A DNA stretch of 40,811 bases from Thermomicrobiaceae bacterium. Lineage in GTDB: Bacteria > Chloroflexota > Chloroflexia > Thermomicrobiales > Thermomicrobiaceae. The position numbers and the translations under genes are program-made. Positions 1-8,936 of the stretch are shown one piece after another. The notes below the pieces were generated by a model, which was given only the letters and a program-made list of their open reading frames with translations, was not told where the DNA came from and ran no database searches. The number at the start of each line of letters is the position of its first letter. Within the stretch, counting starts at the first letter, position 1. The stretch covers positions 1 to 40,811 of the forward strand of contig JADBJL010000061.1 in NCBI GenBank assembly GCA_014874455.1, written 5' to 3'.

Positions 1-176
1 GTACAGAGCCGCGGCAGGACGTGAACCACGACATTGGAATCGTGCTCCGCGAACCAACGGAGGATCGCGGAGACATCCAGTCGGCTGGCGTCACTGCCAA
101 GGTGGTCACAGAGCAGGACGGCGACCCGAACCGACCCGTCCAGCGATGTGCCGTGGTCGCGCCATTGAGCGCTCAT
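1..176 (-). CDS. HdrA-like / Fe-S flavoprotein-type protein, N-terminus only (cut by window edge)
   Basis: The frame opens with ATG at 176 and stays open to the window edge, giving 58 residues starting MSAQWRDHGTSLDG. Its ATG overlaps the TGA of the TorD-like gene (ATGA), so it belongs to the same operon and is probably translationally coupled. The segment VRVAVLLCD, then an acidic/hydrophobic alternation, then VLPRLC resembles the N-terminal domain of heterodisulfide-reductase HdrA-type proteins, where a VxVxxC strand is followed about 35-40 residues later by a second Cys. The resemblance is by eye and only this short piece is visible. That it is a real gene is well supported by the overlap and coding character; the family is tentative. 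If right, it could pass electrons between the molybdoenzyme and a cytoplasmic thiol or ferredoxin pool. Confidence 0.6.
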   Translation of the reverse strand, partial: MSAQWRDHGTSLDGSVRVAVLLCDHLGSDASRLDVSAILRWFAEHDSNVVVHVLPRLC

Positions 177-931
177 CGGTGCACCTCGTCGAGGGTGTCG
201 AGCAGCAGGGCGAGCAGATCGAGGTCATGCCGCACAAGCGCGTCGCACGCGACTGCCGCAGCCGCGTAGACGCCGGTGGTGTCGTAGAGCACGAGCTGGT
301 TAGCGAACACCGGTATCCACGAGCCCAGGAACCGCTCGAGGAAGTGTCGTTCTCGCCGCAGCACCCTCCGTAACCCGTCCACAGGGGCGAGCTCCCATGC
401 TTCCGCTTCCCGCTCGCACAGTACCGCCGTGTACTCGAGTTCGACCGAGAGATGGTCAGGTGGTTCGTGGAGCGACGGTGACAGCGCGACGCCCGCTGCG
501 CGGTACTCGCGCTCGAGCAGGAGCGGGATCCAGCCGGCGGCGCTGCGGTCGGGGTCGAGGTAGCAGGAAGCGTAGAGTGGGCAGCTCGGCCGGCCACCGG
601 GGCCGACGACGAAGAGCGATGTATAGGCAGTCGCGAGTTCCCCTGCGCTCGGCGGAGCCTCCGTGGTCAGCCGGTCGAGTAGCCGCCGCCAGGTCAGGTA
701 CCAGTGGAACCCCGCCATTGCCTCCTGCTCGGCGCGCATGGCCTGAGCTGCCTCCAGGAGCTGCGCGTGCCGATCCTCCTGCGGGGGCAGGAAGACGGCT
801 CCCAGGAAGCGATACAACGCTCGACGGAGCCGGGCCAGGTTGGCGAGTTCGGGCGCGTGCCGAGGAGACGTCGCTGTGGGCGTCTCCTGTCCGGAGCTGT
901 GCAGCTCTCGGTTACGGCCACTCGCCCTCAT
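173..931 (-). CDS. TorD/DmsD-family molybdoenzyme chaperone
   Basis: A 252-aa soluble, mostly helical protein. TorD-family proteins bind the Tat signal of a molybdoenzyme and guard cofactor insertion before export, in the cytoplasm. Seen here: a helix-rich start (LARLRRALYRFLGAVF), a central YTSLFVVGPGGRPSCPLYAS segment like the family's 'Y..LF..G....P.yeS' core, and a DHLSVELEY stretch matching the conserved 'DHl..EL.f' element. The start at 931 was chosen because its ATG overlaps the stop of the upstream 71-aa gene (ATGA); a much longer upstream extension in the same frame is only a shadow of the NrfD region. Its place behind the A-B-C subunits makes the large Tat-exported subunit its likely client. 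Confidence 0.85.
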   Translation of the reverse strand: MRASGRNRELHSSGQETPTATSPRHAPELANLARLRRALYRFLGAVFLPPQEDRHAQLLEAAQAMRAEQEAMAGFHWYLTWRRLLDRLTTEAPPSAGELATAYTSLFVVGPGGRPSCPLYASCYLDPDRSAAGWIPLLLEREYRAAGVALSPSLHEPPDHLSVELEYTAVLCEREAEAWELAPVDGLRRVLRRERHFLERFLGSWIPVFANQLVLYDTTGVYAAAAVACDALVRHDLDLLALLLDTLDEVHR

Positions 932-1143
932 TGCGCTTGCCTGTCCGGTAGGAGCTCGTAGACGACGGCGGCGAGGAAGACCAGCATGACCCCCAGGATG
1001 AACAGGGTCGGAGCAAAGGGTACCCGGGGGTTGCTGTAGACCGGACTTGATGGAATGCCCCAGGGAGCGGCCAGGAAGAAGTAGCTCACGGCCTGCAAGG
1101 CAAAGCCGACGATGACCATCAGGATCGCGAGCGTCGCGCGCAT
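928..1143 (-). CDS. Small two-span membrane protein of the molybdoenzyme operon
   Basis: A 71-aa protein with two predicted membrane helices: residues about 4-27 (LAILMVIVGFALQAVSYFF) and about 44-63 (APTLFILGVMLVFLAAVVYE). A loop rich in Pro and Ser lies between them. ATG at 1143 overlaps the NrfD stop by one base (TGATG), and its own stop overlaps the chaperone start. It is therefore locked in the operon between the membrane anchor and the chaperone. I do not recognise a family. By position it may be an accessory subunit or assembly factor of the membrane complex; that is inference. Confidence 0.75.
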   Translation of the reverse strand: MRATLAILMVIVGFALQAVSYFFLAAPWGIPSSPVYSNPRVPFAPTLFILGVMLVFLAAVVYELLPDRQAQ

Positions 1144-2633
1144 CACTGAGCTCCTTCCTCCGCGGCATGGACTTCCATAACCGGGAAGACCTTGAAGAAC
1201 AGGATGTACAGCAGGGCGCCCAGAGCGAAGAGGCCGACGACGATGCTGACCTCGACCCAGGTCGGGGTATACGATCCTTCCGCGTACGGGAGCAGCGTGC
1301 CGTGTGTCTGGGAGGGCACGACGATGAGCAGCCGCTTGCCGATAGCTGCCACGTTGACCAGGATCCCCGCAGTAGCGCCGGCGGCCACGACGTTGCGGCT
1401 CAGGTACGGCAGGAGCAGCAGGAAGCAGAGGAGCGCCAGGGCGACGGCTAGCCAGGCGAGCAAGCGCTGTGCCCCCGTCGAGAACAACGTGAGCAAGTTC
1501 AAGCCCTGAAGAGCCACCAGGCTGGCCGGAACGAGCGCTGCGACGCCGAAAACCAGAGCCCAGCGCGGCGAAGTCGCTGGCACGCGTGCTCGAAGTCCAG
1601 GCGGCAGGAACGGGAGGAGGAGGACGATCACAGCCAGGACGAGCGCAGCCACCGCGCCCCAAAAGAGCCAGGCGAATTCGCCGGTCAAGAGGCTGAGCGA
1701 GATCCGCACCTCGTGGTGGTGTCCGGCATAGGTGGTGGTCAACAGCTCCACGACCATGAAGTACAGGTAGGTCAGAATCAGCAACAAGAGCAAGGTGCCG
1801 AGCCAGCGGAAGATTCCCTCGTGCAACTGCTCTCGCTCAGCGAGCACGGCGCGCATGACGGCGGCGATCACGAGCAAGAGCCCGATCCCCGAGACCCCGG
1901 CCATCACCACGAAGCCAGGCGCTTGCAGCGTGCTGAACCAACCCGGGCGGCCCGCCTGGATACCGAAGACGAACCCCAGCGTCGAATGCGCGGTCACGAG
2001 CAAGGGGACGATGGCGATGGCGAGCCAGAAACTCACGCGCTCGTGGCGGGCTCGCTCGGCCGGGGTGTCGCGATAGCCGGCTGCCCAGAGGCGATAGAAG
2101 CCGCGCAGCGGGCCCGGCTGCTGCGCGAGGAGAGCGGCGTCTCGCCGACCGTCGAGGTAGAGGTAGACCAGGCTGGCGAAGAGGTAGCCGGAGATGACGA
2201 GGGTGAAGGTTCCGAAGAACGGCGACTGCGGGCGGGCATAGCGGAAGAGGTTGACGATCCCGCGTAGCGGTTGGCCGAGATCCGGCAGGACGCTGAAGGC
2301 TGCGAGGATCAGAGCCACGACGGTCAGCGCCTCGGCCATGCGTGACACGGGCCGAAGGTGTTCCAGGTGAAAGAGCCGGATAAGCGCCGCCATCGTGATC
2401 CCGGCGAAGCTTACGCCGACGAAGTAGACGTCGAAGCTGATGTAGAGACCCCAGGTCGCTCCGCCCATCGTCCCGATATCGCGGAGCCCCGTCACGACCA
2501 GGCCCTCCACGAACTGCCGAGAGTAGGCGAAGATACCCCACCCGACGATGACGAGGAGCGCGGCGAGCAGAAGGTACAACCGGATGGAGAAGCGGCCGAT
2601 ACCGTACGGGAGCTGTTCGACGCGCGCAGCCAT
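1143..2633 (-). CDS. NrfD/PsrC-family polytopic membrane subunit (quinone-interacting anchor)
   Basis: A 496-aa integral membrane protein with about ten to twelve hydrophobic spans, beginning at RLYLLLAALLVIVGWGIFAY and ending near VSIVVGLFALGALLYILFF. NrfD/PsrC/PhsC-type proteins anchor the Fe-S subunit at the membrane and exchange electrons with the quinone pool. It follows the ferredoxin subunit by only two bases, as in PsrABC/TtrABC-type operons. At about 500 residues it is longer than the roughly 320-residue short NrfD proteins and nearer the long form. ATG at 2633 is chosen because it sits right behind the preceding TAG and gives a normal cytoplasmic N-terminus (MAARVEQLPYGIGRF). The electron direction (reductase or dehydrogenase) cannot be read from this sequence. 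Confidence 0.88.
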   Translation of the reverse strand: MAARVEQLPYGIGRFSIRLYLLLAALLVIVGWGIFAYSRQFVEGLVVTGLRDIGTMGGATWGLYISFDVYFVGVSFAGITMAALIRLFHLEHLRPVSRMAEALTVVALILAAFSVLPDLGQPLRGIVNLFRYARPQSPFFGTFTLVISGYLFASLVYLYLDGRRDAALLAQQPGPLRGFYRLWAAGYRDTPAERARHERVSFWLAIAIVPLLVTAHSTLGFVFGIQAGRPGWFSTLQAPGFVVMAGVSGIGLLLVIAAVMRAVLAEREQLHEGIFRWLGTLLLLLILTYLYFMVVELLTTTYAGHHHEVRISLSLLTGEFAWLFWGAVAALVLAVIVLLLPFLPPGLRARVPATSPRWALVFGVAALVPASLVALQGLNLLTLFSTGAQRLLAWLAVALALLCFLLLLPYLSRNVVAAGATAGILVNVAAIGKRLLIVVPSQTHGTLLPYAEGSYTPTWVEVSIVVGLFALGALLYILFFKVFPVMEVHAAEEGAQ

Positions 2634-2635
2634 GG

Positions 2636-3373
2636 CTATACCCTCGCTTTCACCTCTTCGATCTGGCGCGACTCGGTGCTCGGCGGATGCCCACCGACGT
2701 AGTACACCCGTGGCTCGGTGCCCAACTCCTCGAGCAGCCTGAACGAGGGTTTGCGGCGCAGGAGCTGAGAGACCGTGCTGTTGGGATCGTCGAGGTCGCC
2801 GAAATGGAGGGCGAAGAGCGGGCAGTTCTCGACGCAGGCCGGCTGGAGCCCTCGCTCTACCCGCTGCACGCAGAAGGTGCACTTCTCGATCACGCCCTTG
2901 AGGCGTCCGCCACCGGCCGTGCGCCGGCGCTCCTCACCGTAGGGCGCGTCGAGGTCGGGGTTCCGGTAGGGTGGCACGGCCCCGCCGGTCACCTGGACAA
3001 CGTCCTCGTCCTGCCAGTCCAGGTAGTAGTTCTTGGACGGCTTCTTCCAGTTGAAGTAGTTGACGCCGTAGGGGCAGGCGACCTCGCAGTACCGGCAGCC
3101 GATGCACCGATCCCAGTCGGTGGCGACCAGGCCGTCTGCTCGCTTGTAGCGGGCGCCGACCGGGCACACCTTGGCGCAGGGGGCATTGTCGCAGTGCATA
3201 CATGGCCGGGGCATGAACCAGACGTGGGTATCGGGATACTCCCCTTCTTCGAACCGGAAGACGTACATCCAGAAGTTGGCCATCGGCGTGTTGTTCTCCA
3301 CCTTGCACGCCTGCATGCACGCGCGGCAGCCGGTGCAGCGATCGAGGTCGATGACCATCGCGTAGCGAGCCAT
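2636..3373 (-). CDS. Four-cluster 4Fe-4S ferredoxin subunit (PsrB/DmsB/TtrB family)
   Basis: A 245-aa electron-transfer subunit. Four cysteine groups are visible: CTGCRACMQAC (residues 13-23), an HCDNAPCAKVCP group, CIGCRYCEVACPYG, and KCTFC...CVENCP. This is the four [4Fe-4S] arrangement of DmsB/PsrB/PhsB-type subunits that wire the catalytic subunit to the membrane anchor. There is no Tat signal, so it is probably co-exported with the Tat-bearing catalytic subunit, as is usual in this family. It lies 15 bp after the catalytic gene and 2 bp before the NrfD gene. The start MARYAMVIDLDRCTGC matches the family's usual beginning. Confidence 0.93.
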   Translation of the reverse strand: MARYAMVIDLDRCTGCRACMQACKVENNTPMANFWMYVFRFEEGEYPDTHVWFMPRPCMHCDNAPCAKVCPVGARYKRADGLVATDWDRCIGCRYCEVACPYGVNYFNWKKPSKNYYLDWQDEDVVQVTGGAVPPYRNPDLDAPYGEERRRTAGGGRLKGVIEKCTFCVQRVERGLQPACVENCPLFALHFGDLDDPNSTVSQLLRRKPSFRLLEELGTEPRVYYVGGHPPSTESRQIEEVKARV

Positions 3374-3388: not shown

Positions 3389-5950
3389 CTACTTGTAGAC
3401 CCGTACCTTCACGTGGAAGGACTGGTCGGCGGTATTGGCGACGTACCCTTCGCCGGTAAAGAAGAGGCTGTTGGGTGTGGGGCCCTGCCCAGCCGTCCAG
3501 GGATGCCGGATAGCCTCGCCGTAGTGGTGGGGCATCCCGACGGTGTCGGGCCGGATACCCTCCCGGTAACGCGCGATCGTCCGCACCCTGCGCGTCTCGC
3601 CGGTGACCGCGTTGTGCGACTCGACCCAGACCTCGTCACCGTCGTTGATCCCTCGTGCCCGCGCGGTGCGCGGGTTGATCTCGACCCACTCCCGGGGAGC
3701 CAGCTCGGCCAGGAGGGGGATCTGCGAGGAACGCGACTGCTTGAACTCGATCAGCTTGTAGCTGATCAGGTAGAGGTCGTACTCCGGCGGCGACTCCTCC
3801 ATAGTGGGCTTGCGCCAGGTCGGGAAGGGCGTGTAATCGCGCCAGTAGGTCTCGGCGACACCGCGACGGCGCATCTCCTCGCGGTAGCGTCCCAGCGATT
3901 CGCCATAGAGGCGGTGGCGAACGCCCCCGAAGGGTGGGTCGGTAACGTATCCGTAGAGCTTCGTCGCGGGGACCGGCTTACTATCTGTGACCCCGTTTTT
4001 CTCGAAATACGCGACCCCGTCCGTGATGCCTGCCGATTTGGCCCAGCGGTCGAAGATCTCTCGTACGGTCGGCTTGCGGTCGAGCGGGAGCTTGTACTCG
4101 TCCTTGAGCTTCAGCGCCTCATTCAGGTGATGGAGGTAGCCGCCTTCCCCGAATAGGATCCCGGCTTTCTCGCACAGGTCGAGGTAGATCTCGATGTCTC
4201 CCCGACTCTGGAAGAGCGGCGACATCACTGGTATGCGCAGCGCGGTGGCGTCGACATACTGGTCGGTGGCTGACAGTGGCCCTTCGTACTTCTCGAGGGT
4301 GGCTGCCGGGAGCACGACGTCGGCGAACAGGTCGGCCGTCTTCGACAGCCAGGGGTCGATGACGACGACGAACTTGAACTTCTTGTACCCCTCGATCAGG
4401 TCAGGCTGCGACGCGAACGCCACAAGCGGGTTGTTCATGTGGACGATGATGACCTCGGGGACGTAGTCGACGCCGTACTTCTCAGGGTTCTGCATCACCT
4501 TCGCGACGATCGCCGAGTTGTTGCTATTGATCGGGAAGAACATAGAATCCTTAAGGTAGATATTGTACGGAGGATCCTTGATCTCGATCTTATCCAGCTT
4601 CTCGAAGTTTTCGTGGATCTTCCAGGGGCCGACGTCCAGTCGCTGACCGCCGGCGGCGCCGATCGCGCCGAGCAGCATCATGACCAGCAGCATCGCGCGG
4701 ACTGCCTGGAATCCCAGCTCTTGCTGGGCCATGTGGTACGCCATGATGGCGACCGGGCGATACGGTACCGCGACGCCATCGATGACGATCGTGCTGCCGA
4801 TACGGGCGCTTTCACCCAATTCTCTGGCGACACGCTCGATGGCGTCGGCCGGTACTCCGCAGACCTCGGCAGCCCACTCGGGGGTGTACTGGGCGACGTG
4901 TTCCTTGAACGCCTGGAAGGCTGGCTTCGCGGGAGCGCCATCGACGACGTATTCGCCTTCCAGGGCCGGCTCGATGCCCGGCGAGTCGTACGGGCGCGGC
5001 GCATTGCTGGCGAGATCCCATACCAGCTCCTTGTCCTCGCGCCTGAGGAAGAAACCGTCCTCCCCGATGAGGAACGGGGCATTCGTGTACTTGGTGAGGT
5101 ACTCGCGGTCGATCGTCCCTTGCGCGATCAGCAGGTGGCACAGGGCGAGCGCGAGAGCCAGATCGGTGGCCGGCCGAATCGGCAGCCACTCGTCGGCAAA
5201 GTGCCCGGCGCCACGGAGGCGAGGGTCGATCGCCACGAGTTTCATTCCTCGCTCTTTGGCCTGGATGAGCTGTTGCGGCCAGGTGATCCAGCAGAGCTGG
5301 TTACCGCCAGCGTTGGTAAGATTCCAGCCCCAGGCCAACAGGTACCGCGTGTGCCGAAAGTCGGGATGCAGTACCCCGGAGATCCCGACGGTATACTCGC
5401 CAGCCCGGTAGCCGGCGTCGGAGCAGAAAGCACCGTGATGGAGCCTGGTTGCCCCTGACGCCTTCACGAAGGCTTCGTCGTAGAAGGCCTTCCCTTTGCT
5501 CCTCCCCTTTTGCCAGAGGAGGAGCCGGGGGTCTCGTTCGCGGACTTCCCGGATCTTCTCTCCCACCAGCGTCAACGCCTCGTCCCAGGTGGCCTGCCGC
5601 CACTGGCCCGGCACCCCCTTCTCGTTCGTCCGGATCAGCGGCGTCTTGACTCGGTTGGGGTCGTAGAGCGCCATGATCTGGGCGACCCCTTTGGGACACA
5701 GCGTACCCCGGTTGCGGGGGTGCGCCGGGTGACCGACGAGCCGCACGACGCGGCCATCGATGCGCCTGGCCAGCATGCCGCAGTCTTGCTTGCCGATCCA
5801 GCATGCGGTGGGGATCCATTCCTCGCCCTGCTGGGACGACGGCTGCTGCGCCATTAGAGTATCCAGTTCCCCGAAGAGGAACCGGCTCGCGAGCAACCCC
5901 CCGCTCGCGGCTGCAGAGCCCTTCAGGAAGGTTCTCCGACTGATCCTCAT
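3389..5950 (-). CDS. Tat-exported molybdopterin oxidoreductase catalytic subunit (PsrA/PhsA/TtrA-like)
   Basis: An 853-aa member of the DMSO-reductase superfamily. It starts with a twin-arginine signal (SRRTFLKGSAAASGGLLAS), so it is probably exported and works on the outer face. The N-terminal Fe-S region has Cys50, Cys57 and Cys85 (LCPKG), but residue 53, where the second Cys of the usual CxxCxxxC is expected, is Gly. The Cys in HHGAFCSDAG is at about the place of the Mo-ligating residue. The C-terminal molybdopterin-dinucleotide domain (ELAPREWVEINPRTA...GDEVWVES) is intact. Candidate substrates for this A-B-NrfD layout are polysulfide, sulfur, thiosulfate, tetrathionate or arsenic oxyanions; nothing visible decides. 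It is the first gene of a leftward operon with a GAGGTGGA ribosome site. Confidence 0.92.
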   Translation of the reverse strand: MRISRRTFLKGSAAASGGLLASRFLFGELDTLMAQQPSSQQGEEWIPTACWIGKQDCGMLARRIDGRVVRLVGHPAHPRNRGTLCPKGVAQIMALYDPNRVKTPLIRTNEKGVPGQWRQATWDEALTLVGEKIREVRERDPRLLLWQKGRSKGKAFYDEAFVKASGATRLHHGAFCSDAGYRAGEYTVGISGVLHPDFRHTRYLLAWGWNLTNAGGNQLCWITWPQQLIQAKERGMKLVAIDPRLRGAGHFADEWLPIRPATDLALALALCHLLIAQGTIDREYLTKYTNAPFLIGEDGFFLRREDKELVWDLASNAPRPYDSPGIEPALEGEYVVDGAPAKPAFQAFKEHVAQYTPEWAAEVCGVPADAIERVARELGESARIGSTIVIDGVAVPYRPVAIMAYHMAQQELGFQAVRAMLLVMMLLGAIGAAGGQRLDVGPWKIHENFEKLDKIEIKDPPYNIYLKDSMFFPINSNNSAIVAKVMQNPEKYGVDYVPEVIIVHMNNPLVAFASQPDLIEGYKKFKFVVVIDPWLSKTADLFADVVLPAATLEKYEGPLSATDQYVDATALRIPVMSPLFQSRGDIEIYLDLCEKAGILFGEGGYLHHLNEALKLKDEYKLPLDRKPTVREIFDRWAKSAGITDGVAYFEKNGVTDSKPVPATKLYGYVTDPPFGGVRHRLYGESLGRYREEMRRRGVAETYWRDYTPFPTWRKPTMEESPPEYDLYLISYKLIEFKQSRSSQIPLLAELAPREWVEINPRTARARGINDGDEVWVESHNAVTGETRRVRTIARYREGIRPDTVGMPHHYGEAIRHPWTAGQGPTPNSLFFTGEGYVANTADQSFHVKVRVYK

Positions 5951-6200: not shown

Positions 6201-6851
6201 CTAGCTCGGCGGGCTAGGCGGCTTGACCAGGCCCGTACGCAGCGCGTAGGCGATGACCTGGGCGCGGTTCTCGAGGTGGAGCTTGGCCATGATGTTCTTG
6301 AGGTGGTACTTGACGGTGTTCTCGCTGATGAAGAGGCGCTCAGCCAGCTCGCGGTTGGAGGTTATCCCCTGCACGAGTAGCTCCAGGATCTGCCGCTCGC
6401 GGTCGGTGAGTGCAGCCGCCTGTTCCTGTGCCGCAGGCCGCTGGGCCAGCTCCTGGAGGAGCCGGCGGGCCAGCCTCGGAGTCAACACCGGCTCGCCGGC
6501 CATCACCGCTTCGAGCGCCTGGAAGAAGTCGTCCGCCTCCAGGTTCTTGAGCAGGTAGCCCTGCGCGCCGGACTTGATCGCCTCGAACAGGTCGGCCTCG
6601 TCGTCGGACGCTGTCAGGATGACCACGCGCACGTCCGGCAACTCGGTCGACACCAGCCGGGTGGCGGTAAGCCCGTCGACCTCCGGCATGGTCAAGTCCA
6701 TCAGGACGATGTCGGGCCGGTAGCGCCGAGCCAGCTCGATCGCCTCGCGGCCGTTCCGGGCTTCACCGACCACCTCGACACCGCGCGCCTCGAGCAGGCT
6801 GCGTAGCCCATCGCGAAAGAGCGCGTGGTCATCCGCGATCAAGACGCGCAT
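6201..6851 (-). CDS. NarL/LuxR-family response regulator
   Basis: A 216-aa two-domain transcription factor. The receiver domain (residues 1-120) has the acidic pair Asp7/Asp8, phospho-acceptor Asp52 in VLMDLTMPEVDG, Thr80 and Lys102. The C-terminal LuxR-type helix-turn-helix (about 145-210) contains LTDREREILELL-like LTDRERQILELLVQG and NTVKYHLKNIMAKL. Its start overlaps the end of the sensor kinase gene by 23 bases, so the two are made together. Phosphorylation by that kinase should promote DNA binding. The nearest downstream operon is the molybdoenzyme, and palindromes resembling NarL heptamers lie between, so control of that operon by a respiratory signal is a reasonable inference. Confidence 0.95.
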   Translation of the reverse strand: MRVLIADDHALFRDGLRSLLEARGVEVVGEARNGREAIELARRYRPDIVLMDLTMPEVDGLTATRLVSTELPDVRVVILTASDDEADLFEAIKSGAQGYLLKNLEADDFFQALEAVMAGEPVLTPRLARRLLQELAQRPAAQEQAAALTDRERQILELLVQGITSNRELAERLFISENTVKYHLKNIMAKLHLENRAQVIAYALRTGLVKPPSPPS

Positions 6852-8259
6852 CGCTTCCCCCTACGGCGAGCGCTTGCCGCCGGAGCGGGATCTCGACCTC
6901 GATGGTGGTACCTAACCCCGGCTGGGAGCGGATCGCCAGCGTGCCACCGACCGCCTCTGCCCGCTCGCGCATTGTCGCCAGCCCGAAGCGCGGGTAACCG
7001 GTACGGTCGTGTGCCTCCGGGTCGAAACCGCCGCCGTTGTCGCTGACCGCGACGGTCATGGACTCAGTGGTCTTGCCGATCCGGACGGTGACGTGCGTAG
7101 CACCAGCGTGCTTGCGCACGTTGGTCAACGCCTCCTGGACGATGCGGAGGAGCTGGAGTTCGGCGATCGTCGAGAGACCGGTGAGCTCATCGCCCGGCGG
7201 CTCGACGACGAGGTCGACGGCGATACCGCTCTGCTCGCGCCAGCGCTCCAGGTAGCGCTGCAGGGCCTGGAGCAGCGTCTGCGAGGGGTCGAGGCCGGTG
7301 CGCAGCCCGAGGATGCCCTCGCGCACATCGGCGTAGGCGTCGCGGGCGGCCTGCTCGAGCTGGCGTAGGTGCTGCTCGGCGTCGGCCACGCGCCCCACCT
7401 GGCCGAGCAGTTCGCGGGCGGCCGAGGCTTTGGTGATGACGTAGCCGAGCACTTGAGCCAGGCTGTCATGCATCTCCCGAGCGATTCGCTCGCGCTCCTC
7501 GGCGATGGCCAGGCTGGTGATGCGGCGGTGCAGCCGGGCGTTGGTGATCGCCAGCGCGGCCTGGGTGGCGAAGCGCTCGAGGCGAAGCTGATCCTGCGGC
7601 GAATAGGGCGTGTCGTCCTCCCGGTCGGCCAGGTAGAGGGCCCCGAGGACGCTCTCTCCGCTTCGGATCGGAACACCCAAGAGCATGCGCAAGGTCACGT
7701 GACCCTCGGGGAAGCGTCGCTCGCCAGGATAGAGGAAGAGGTCATCGATCCGGAGCGTGCGCCCCTCGCGCAGCACCTGGTCGAGCAGCCCGTGTGACGT
7801 GATCTCCGAAAGCTTGCACGTGCGGTCGGCGGGGAGACCGGAGGCGAAGACGATCGGCGGCATACCGGCCTGGTCGCGCATCACGAGCAAGCCATAGCGC
7901 GCCCCGATGAGCCGGCGCGCCTGGTCGACCACCTGTGCGAGTACCTTCTCGAGGTCGAGGTCGGCGGCGATAGCCAGCCCGGCCTCGTGCAGCGCTCGGA
8001 GTTCGGCGTTGCGCTGCTCCAGCTCGGCCTGCTGCCGGAGGATGATACGAAAGATCCACTCGGCGAAGGCGACGATACCGAACAGTGCGAGCGCGATCGC
8101 GGTCAGTCGGACAGCCCAGGGGCTGACCCCGCGCTGTTCGAGGAGCTGGCCACCGAGCAGGAGCAAGAGCATGTACGCGGCGGGCGCGAGGATCGCGATC
8201 CGCTTCAAGCGGCGGAGTCGCTGCTCCGTGGGTAGTGGTGCAGAGACGCCACGCTGCAT
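6829..8259 (-). CDS. Membrane-bound GAF-domain sensor histidine kinase (NarX/DegS class)
   Basis: A 476-aa kinase, partner of the overlapping response regulator. Two membrane helices lie at about 20-40 and 50-72, followed by a short coiled coil (RQQAELEQRNAELRAL). A GAF domain spans about 95-245. The HisKA_3 dimerisation domain carries phospho-acceptor His264 in IAREMHDSLAQ, and the C-terminus has an ATPase domain with NGGGFD and GLATMRERA. This is the NarL-partner class. There is almost no extracytoplasmic sensor region, so sensing is probably by the GAF domain; no haem or Fe-S ligand pattern is obvious in it. ATG at 8259 is preferred because an in-frame upstream extension runs antisense through the hesB-like gene; GTG at 8265 is an alternative. 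Confidence 0.92.
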   Translation of the reverse strand: MQRGVSAPLPTEQRLRRLKRIAILAPAAYMLLLLLGGQLLEQRGVSPWAVRLTAIALALFGIVAFAEWIFRIILRQQAELEQRNAELRALHEAGLAIAADLDLEKVLAQVVDQARRLIGARYGLLVMRDQAGMPPIVFASGLPADRTCKLSEITSHGLLDQVLREGRTLRIDDLFLYPGERRFPEGHVTLRMLLGVPIRSGESVLGALYLADREDDTPYSPQDQLRLERFATQAALAITNARLHRRITSLAIAEERERIAREMHDSLAQVLGYVITKASAARELLGQVGRVADAEQHLRQLEQAARDAYADVREGILGLRTGLDPSQTLLQALQRYLERWREQSGIAVDLVVEPPGDELTGLSTIAELQLLRIVQEALTNVRKHAGATHVTVRIGKTTESMTVAVSDNGGGFDPEAHDRTGYPRFGLATMRERAEAVGGTLAIRSQPGLGTTIEVEIPLRRQALAVGGSDARLDRG

Positions 8260-8299
8260 CGCCACGCCTGTCCCTTCGAGTCTCAAGGATAACACGTCC

Positions 8300-8327
8300 T
8301 TGACAACGCGCGGCGTTGCGCTATCAT
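8300..8327 (+). promoter_or_regulatory. Sigma70-type promoter for the A-type Fe-S carrier gene
   Basis: TTGACA at 8300-8305 and TATCAT at 8322-8327 with a 16-bp spacer. This places the transcript start near 8334, some 65 bp before the ATG at 8401. The ribosome site GGAGGAGAG lies just before that ATG. Confidence 0.75.
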
Positions 8328-8400
8328 TGCGGCAGTTGGGTTTTGCAAGGCCTGGGTTGCGAATCCCCGGCAAACATGGGGGCGTTGGAGGAGAGCCGCG

Positions 8401-8772
8401 ATGTTGACGATGACGCCGGAAGCGGTCGAGCAGCTCAAGGAGTTTATGGAAGAGCAGGGCATGCCCAATGCGCTGCTCCGCGTGTTCGTCGCGCCTGGTG
8501 GCTGCTCCGGCTTGCAGTACGGCATGGCGCTCGAGGAGACGGCCGAGGAGGACGACCACGTCGTCGAAATCGACGGCGTGCGGGTCGTCGTCGACCAGTT
8601 CAGCGCGATCTACCTTGAGGGCGCCGAGATCGACTACATCAACAGCCTCATGGGTGGTGGCTTCACGGTGCGTAATCCCAACGCCGTGGCGACCTGCGCC
8701 TGCGGCCACTCCTTCGATGCCGGCGGCAACGCCGCGACGGCGCAGGGCTGCGGCTGCGGCGGCGGCTGGTAA
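8401..8772 (+). CDS. A-type iron-sulfur cluster carrier (HesB/IscA/ErpA family)
   Basis: A 123-aa protein that accepts and delivers Fe-S clusters to target enzymes in the cytoplasm. The three family cysteines are present: Cys35 in GGCSGLQY, and Cys99 and Cys101 in the CACG motif. It ends in a Gly/Ala-rich tail with two more cysteines (117 and 119, GCGCGGGW), which the ~105-110-residue family core lacks. It is monocistronic, with its own promoter and a strong hairpin after it. Nearby Fe-S enzymes (molybdoenzyme, ferredoxin subunit) are possible clients, but the family serves many proteins. Confidence 0.93.
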   Translation: MLTMTPEAVEQLKEFMEEQGMPNALLRVFVAPGGCSGLQYGMALEETAEEDDHVVEIDGVRVVVDQFSAIYLEGAEIDYINSLMGGGFTVRNPNAVATCACGHSFDAGGNAATAQGCGCGGGW

Positions 8773-8801
8773 CAGGTCGCGTCGAACTGAGACGCTGAGG
8801 T

Positions 8802-8832
8802 CGACGCACGGGTGGGGTGTGCCCGTGCGTCG
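8802..8832 (+). terminator. Strong GC hairpin after the Fe-S carrier gene
   Basis: An 11-bp perfect stem, CGACGCACGGG (8802-8812) with CCCGTGCGTCG (8822-8832), and a 9-nt loop, 30 bp after the stop codon. No run of T follows, so it is a terminator of the GC-rich, U-poor kind or an mRNA 3'-end stabiliser. Confidence 0.55.
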
Positions 8833-8936
8833 TCGCGTGTCCACGACGCTGGCGTGGCCACTCACGGCTCGTCTCAGGCAGAACTCGACCGCCCGCCGGT
8901 CGGGCGGGGGACACGCTGCTGGGCGGCTTCGCTCGC

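Follow-up and report, generated by a model that had tools for sequence, protein, structure and literature searches.

A widespread family of bacterial and archaeal molybdoenzymes in which an invariant glycine replaces the second FS0 cysteine

The described systems that most resemble the enzyme analyzed here are Arx/Arr, Psr/Phs and Aio/Idr. In Arx/Arr (ArxA, ArrA), an exported molybdenum subunit with a cysteine ligand is combined with a four-cluster B subunit, an NrfD-type anchor and TorD, together with an XSR-type sensor system; the active-site segment reads H-x-x-x-C(SD) and the N-terminal cluster, FS0, has the spacing CX2xX3CX27C. Our enzyme family shares all of these features, but ArrA (CQGCTSWC) and a presumed ArxA (CHQCPARC) keep four FS0 cysteines and the family keeps three. 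PsrA and PhsA, which also have four FS0 cysteines, provide the best PDB and NCBIfam sequence matches, and Psr has the same A-B-C gene order with an NrfD anchor. AioA and IdrA resemble the family in their three-cysteine FS0, which is a [3Fe-4S] cluster in AioA, and in AioXSR regulation. However, AioA has serine in place of the fourth cysteine, whereas the family lost the second; the family has a candidate cysteine ligand to molybdenum and Aio has none; and the partner subunit is a four-cluster ferredoxin rather than the Rieske protein of AioA/IdrA. Loss of one cysteine ligand often yields a [3Fe-4S] cluster, as it does in FrdB of fumarate reductase, where the second position of a motif holds a non-cysteine residue. 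In E. coli DmsA, C38 variants made by Trieber et al. in 1996, which lack the second FS0 cysteine, reportedly contain a [3Fe-4S] FS0 and are impaired in electron transfer; those variants were engineered, whereas the family described here is natural. The spacing CX2xX3CX27C has been reported for Arr, Unk and Psr (PMC2500031), and the [3Fe-4S] cluster of AioA/IdrA, members of the same superfamily, is of high potential (PMC10100899).

We analyzed a contig of 40,811 nucleotides from a Thermomicrobiaceae bacterium, referred to as the window, which encodes a catalytic Mo/W-bisPGD subunit of 853 residues on the minus strand (3389..5950). The N-terminus carries the twin-arginine signal SRRTFLKG, and the domains Molybdopterin (PF00384), Molydop_binding (PF01568) and Molybdop_Fe4S4 (PF04879) all exceed their Pfam cut-offs. 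The AlphaFold model (pLDDT 89.4), from which the cluster is absent, gives full-length fold matches to Fdh (Z 34.6), PsrA (34.0), Nap/NapA (33.4) and Arr (32.2). By its fold and pterin-binding domains the subunit belongs to the Mo/W-bisPGD (DMSO reductase/MopB) superfamily. The usual four-ligand N-terminal FS0 motif is missing, which leaves this membership unaffected because MopB also includes members without FS0. Among solved relatives, PsrA (236 bits) and ArrA (203 bits) score best by profile, with ArrA aligned over its full length. Against curated models, the subunit lies far under the PhsA cut-off (258.8 versus 694 bits) and below that of ArrA (133.6 versus 1600 bits). Cys176 (5423..5425), the likely Mo/W ligand as judged from conservation and alignment, sits in the segment (G/H)H-G-x-(Y/F)-C-S-D, which aligns with HSSVC of ArrA and GHSSMCSD of the presumed ArxA, and is cysteine in 84 of 84 family members. 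His172, four residues ahead, is present in 80 of 84 members versus 12 of 56 relatives. At the position of ArrA Lys198, the subunit has tyrosine.

The FS0 region, C50-X2-G53-X3-C57-X27-C85, spans 5696..5803 on the minus strand, precisely from the codon of Cys50 (5801-5803) to that of Cys85 (5696-5698). It reads C50-W-I-G53-K-Q-D-C57 followed by LC85-PKG. The codons of Cys50 and Cys57 are TGC, and codon 53 (5792..5794) is GGC, placing glycine where the second cysteine is expected. The earlier note on this DNA had read CWIGKQDC followed by LCPKG, with three cysteines kept and glycine at residue 53, and this reading is confirmed. A first scan, using one genome per species, yielded 78 loci and was biased, since CWIGKQDC was among the seeds. 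As a check on this bias, unseeded profile searches were run against three genome sets: the window's phylum (400 genomes), the haloarchaeal phylum (295) and an actinobacterial class (247). Every full-length match above approximately 960 bits contains the motif; the scores then fall to 573 bits, where four-cysteine relatives begin, and matches at that score and lower are four-cysteine proteins with few exceptions. When the 85 family members are aligned together with 57 relatives, the FS0 region is present in 80 members, and C50, W51, G53, K54, Q55, C57, C85 and K87 are each identical in all 80. Lys87 (5690..5692), in LCPKG, occupies the position of the lysine between FS0 and pterin in FdhH. Position 56 is less strict, with 77 Asp, 2 Glu and 1 Gly. 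Outside the family, position 53 is cysteine in 53 of 55 relatives and aspartate in two; the latter, L165 (CNMDYNAC) and L166 (CNLDYNAC), represent a separate substitution. Homologue alignment, which the earlier note had proposed, thus finds glycine 53 in 80 of 80 sequences from many bacterial phyla to the haloarchaea, and excludes a substitution unique to this sequence. The chance that we are looking at a sequencing error or a decaying gene is negligible, given the same glycine in 80 homologues from independent assemblies, an intact reading frame and conserved catalytic residues. A text search of the open-licence literature for CWIGKQDC found no paper.

In quick trees, the family is a single clade (100% SH-aLRT) on a long stem, sister (97%) to a clade of uncharacterized four-cysteine proteins (for example L115, L124, L152 and L153). 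These nearest relatives share approximately 30-38% identity with the family and have a CxxCxxxC FS0; they lack Gly53 and the family-specific Cys220, and R150 and H172 are not conserved as a pair. The two aspartate-bearing sequences are nested within this sister clade. We considered whether monophyly could be an artefact of the motif itself and rejected it, as the same clade is obtained after removal of residues 1-95 and 214-222. The motif-free tree requires two state changes in total, one to Gly and one to Asp. Most simply, Gly53 would reflect one replacement at the base of the clade, retained with the block CWIGK-Q-(D/E)-C. In a further quick tree containing PhsA, the presumed ArxA and an 'Unk'-type protein, with ArrA not among the sequences, the family and its sister clade stay separate from these (support 98 versus the presumed ArxA); the molybdenum subunit is not nearest to the presumed ArxA. 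Bacterial members were found in Chloroflexota, Actinomycetota, Nitrospinota, Rokubacteria, Methylomirabilota, Schekmanbacteria, Zixibacteria, Armatimonadota and Bacillota MAGs, and archaeal members in Nitrososphaeria, Bathyarchaeota-type and Thermofilaceae MAGs and cultured haloarchaea; some phyla on this list may be false owing to MAG binning errors. This is a large molybdoenzyme family, widely spread among bacteria and archaea, in which the second FS0 cysteine is replaced by an invariant glycine. The single conserved clade, the intact partner subunits and the retention of Cys176 and Lys87 agree with the earlier proposal of a functional variant subfamily as opposed to decay.

What cluster does such a motif hold? 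The family spacing, CX2[G]X3CX27C, is that of Arr, Unk and Psr. Because it equals Arr/Psr, an FS0 with three cysteine ligands, either [3Fe-4S] or open-site [4Fe-4S], seems likeliest, and because the three cysteines and Lys87 are invariant, the cluster is probably retained. We suggest that FS0 is still assembled on the three cysteines. A [3Fe-4S] cluster with a raised potential is the likeliest form, followed by a site-differentiated [4Fe-4S] cluster, and FS0 would still pass single electrons between molybdenum and the small subunit's first cluster. A [4Fe-4S] FS0 in which a non-cysteine ligand (the side chain of Gln55 or Lys54, or another residue folded in) or water at an open site binds the fourth iron is rather unlikely. 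Lys54 and Gln55, beside Gly53, are conserved in 80 of 80 members, aspartate occupies the second position in two relatives, and histidine is known as the first FS0 ligand in Nar/EbDH-type enzymes (PMC8840923), but glutamine or lysine would be an unusual cluster ligand and Asp56 is not invariant. Of the two non-cysteine ligands suggested earlier, Gln55 stays a candidate, whereas Asp56 is ruled out as an obligatory one by the Gly (L002/L095) and by Glu in two other sequences.

Complete loss of FS0, with electrons bypassing it, has precedent in that one family of the superfamily lost the cluster (PMC10100899), and cysteine substitution in NarG stops both FS0 and Moco insertion (PMC10609526). We nevertheless regard it, and with it the 'no cluster' option of the earlier note, as highly improbable: unvarying cysteines and Lys87 in 80 of 80 members, from bacteria to archaea, are not expected without a cluster, and the Fe4S4 domain still exceeds its Pfam cut-off. 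Equally doubtful is replacement of the missing ligand by the family-specific invariant Cys220 (5291..5293) or His406. Cys220 is present in 85 of 85 members and in none of 41 alignable relatives, indicating that it arose in the same lineage as Gly53, but it comes after strand 203-207, a segment that, judging from related structures, presumably lies on the pterin/Mo side, away from FS0. Cys220 sits in an insertion, in the loop GGNxLCW.

The remaining genes of the operon follow on the minus strand. The electron-transfer subunit (2636..3373; 245 residues) has four [4Fe-4S] motifs with all 16 cysteines intact, and is nearest to the ArrB, DsrO and QrcC models, scoring under their cut-offs except for DsrO, where it is just at the cut-off. 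The NrfD/PsrC-type membrane anchor (1143..2633; Pfam NrfD, 3.3e-25) lies in an open reading frame that reaches 2882, with the likely start, ATG at 2633, picked by inspection. A TorD/NarJ-type chaperone (173..1168), recognized by domain matches (Nitrate_red_del), possibly starts near 931. As the earlier note had stated, the enzyme's wiring subunits are thus all in place. Upstream, on the same strand, are a LuxR-type response regulator (6201..6851) and a GAF-domain histidine kinase (6829..8865) whose catalytic part is NarQ/NarX-like. An ArxB' gene is absent from the window operon, and no sulfur genes adjoining the operon were identified in the window.

In relatives, with loci of up to 14 kb, the operon has the order Mo - FeS - NrfD - TorD, and 43 of 73 loci have a FlpD/HdrA-like polyferredoxin gene after it. 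This protein, of approximately 500 residues, regularly comes after torD (for example L038:7134-8741, L059:11488-13149 and about 40 other loci); the window contig ends before any position where it could appear. A histidine kinase and regulator are nearby in 26 loci, and a PhnD-like binding protein is near the operon in about 20 of 80 (about a quarter). Where present, the periplasmic binding protein, kinase and regulator are located upstream of the operon; where 4 kb or more of upstream sequence is available, just 14 of 49 loci contain the sensor. In four loci (L046:10859-11527, L050, L058, L061) the operon has an FmdE-domain protein carrying a zinc finger nearby, and in an Armatimonadota MAG a second, four-cysteine molybdoenzyme of approximately 1200 residues (L033:2222-5827) lies immediately upstream.

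The neighboring binding proteins resemble arsenic sensors. Their profile scores are 307 bits for ArrX, 200 for AioX, 130 for PtxB and approximately 83 for PhnD. The equivalent of AioX Cys106, which is missing from PhnD (PMC5908839), is found in 18 of 18, and the pocket residues Tyr107, Tyr152, Ser182 and His213 are invariant, which places these proteins with AioX/ArxX/ArrX and separates them from PhnD. The 49 family genomes contain 21 strong ArrX-like sensor matches, 15 of them on the contig of the enzyme and within approximately 10 kb, as counted after pairing contigs by hand. An uncharacterized 'Unk'-type enzyme also has a PhnD-like protein from this subfamily as its neighbor, and sensor type alone is therefore no proof of an arsenic substrate. 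The operon of Cereibacter azotoformans (Owens River), presumed to be arx from its gene order, runs X-S-R ... A-B-C-D and resembles the family layout. A plasmid of Azoarcus sp. KH32C encodes a molybdoenzyme of the BCA type (L205:4989-7628) beside a PhnD-like protein and a kinase; the enzyme reads CHVCNIQD-G, with the third FS0 cysteine position apparently Asp.

Arsenic genes also occur near the enzyme. The acr3 gene is within approximately 6 kb in four loci (L046, L072, L076, L104), the match in L072 being slightly under the cut-off, against an expectation of about 0.14, estimated from 28 matches over approximately 157 Mb scaled to approximately 0.8 Mb around the enzymes. In the family genomes overall, acr3 is missing from half. 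Haloarchaeal copies have ArsR upstream, and in Natronorubrum bangense the operon is flanked upstream by an ArsR gene, whose product has a CxC motif, and downstream by arsD/arsA. Haloarchaeal arr genes are said to have been described early on by Rascovan et al. in 2016. In the window's own genome, searches for acr3 and arsB found neither, and a search for the ArrX-like sensor, run without a positive control genome, gave no match. As this genome lacks all three and its kinase has a GAF domain, the arsenic role of the enzyme is drawn from its relatives.

Based on these observations, we propose that the enzyme forms an exported, membrane-anchored complex, consisting of a molybdenum subunit, a 4x[4Fe-4S] subunit, an NrfD quinone-reactive anchor and TorD, that would work like Psr/Arr/Arx. 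Judged from its neighbors, the substrate in many members at least may be an arsenic oxyanion, with arsenite oxidized to arsenate and electrons passed to quinone, or the reverse. Speaking against this proposal are the absence of acr3, arsB and the sensor from the window's own genome, the loci without a sensor and the genomes without acr3, the position of the molybdenum subunit in the tree, a PsrA score slightly higher than that of ArrA, and the tyrosine in place of ArrA Lys198. The same complex could instead act on a sulfur compound (polysulfide, thiosulfate, tetrathionate or sulfite), as PhsA/PsrA do: PhsA is the top NCBIfam model, PsrA is first by profile and among the top structural matches, and acr3 and arsB, the two arsenic export types tested, are absent from the window's genome. 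We consider this unlikely, though worth keeping in mind, as the PhsA score falls so far short of its cut-off and the family is associated with ArrX-type sensors, acr3 and ArsR. On balance we lean towards a distinct exported Psr/Arr/Arx-like complex that retains a three-cysteine FS0, likely [3Fe-4S], and has an arsenic oxyanion as substrate in many members. Our best guess is a putative arsenite/arsenate oxidoreductase that is separate from both Aio and Arx/Arr. More tentatively, the family could constitute an additional class of respiratory arsenic oxidoreductase, with an FS0 that lacks the second ligand ([3Fe-4S] or open-site) beside a cysteine-ligated molybdenum, found in Chloroflexota, Actinomycetota, Nitrospinota, Methylomirabilota and several archaeal groups. 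The earlier interpretation is supported in part; it was silent on the aspartate-bearing relatives, the distinct gene neighborhood and the arsenic association.

Cysteine substitutions in NarG disrupt FS0 assembly, which is considered necessary for molybdenum insertion (PMC10609526). A family in which a cysteine substitution became fixed across bacteria and archaea has found a natural way round this, and it allows the contribution of FS0 ligation and potential to be tested. The deeply conserved family with a three-cysteine FS0 is real, and its link to arsenic is testable. If that link is true, the family would represent an unrecognized arsenic redox enzyme that is common in hot-spring, groundwater, hypersaline and marine settings, and one overlooked by surveys that use aioA, arxA and arrA.
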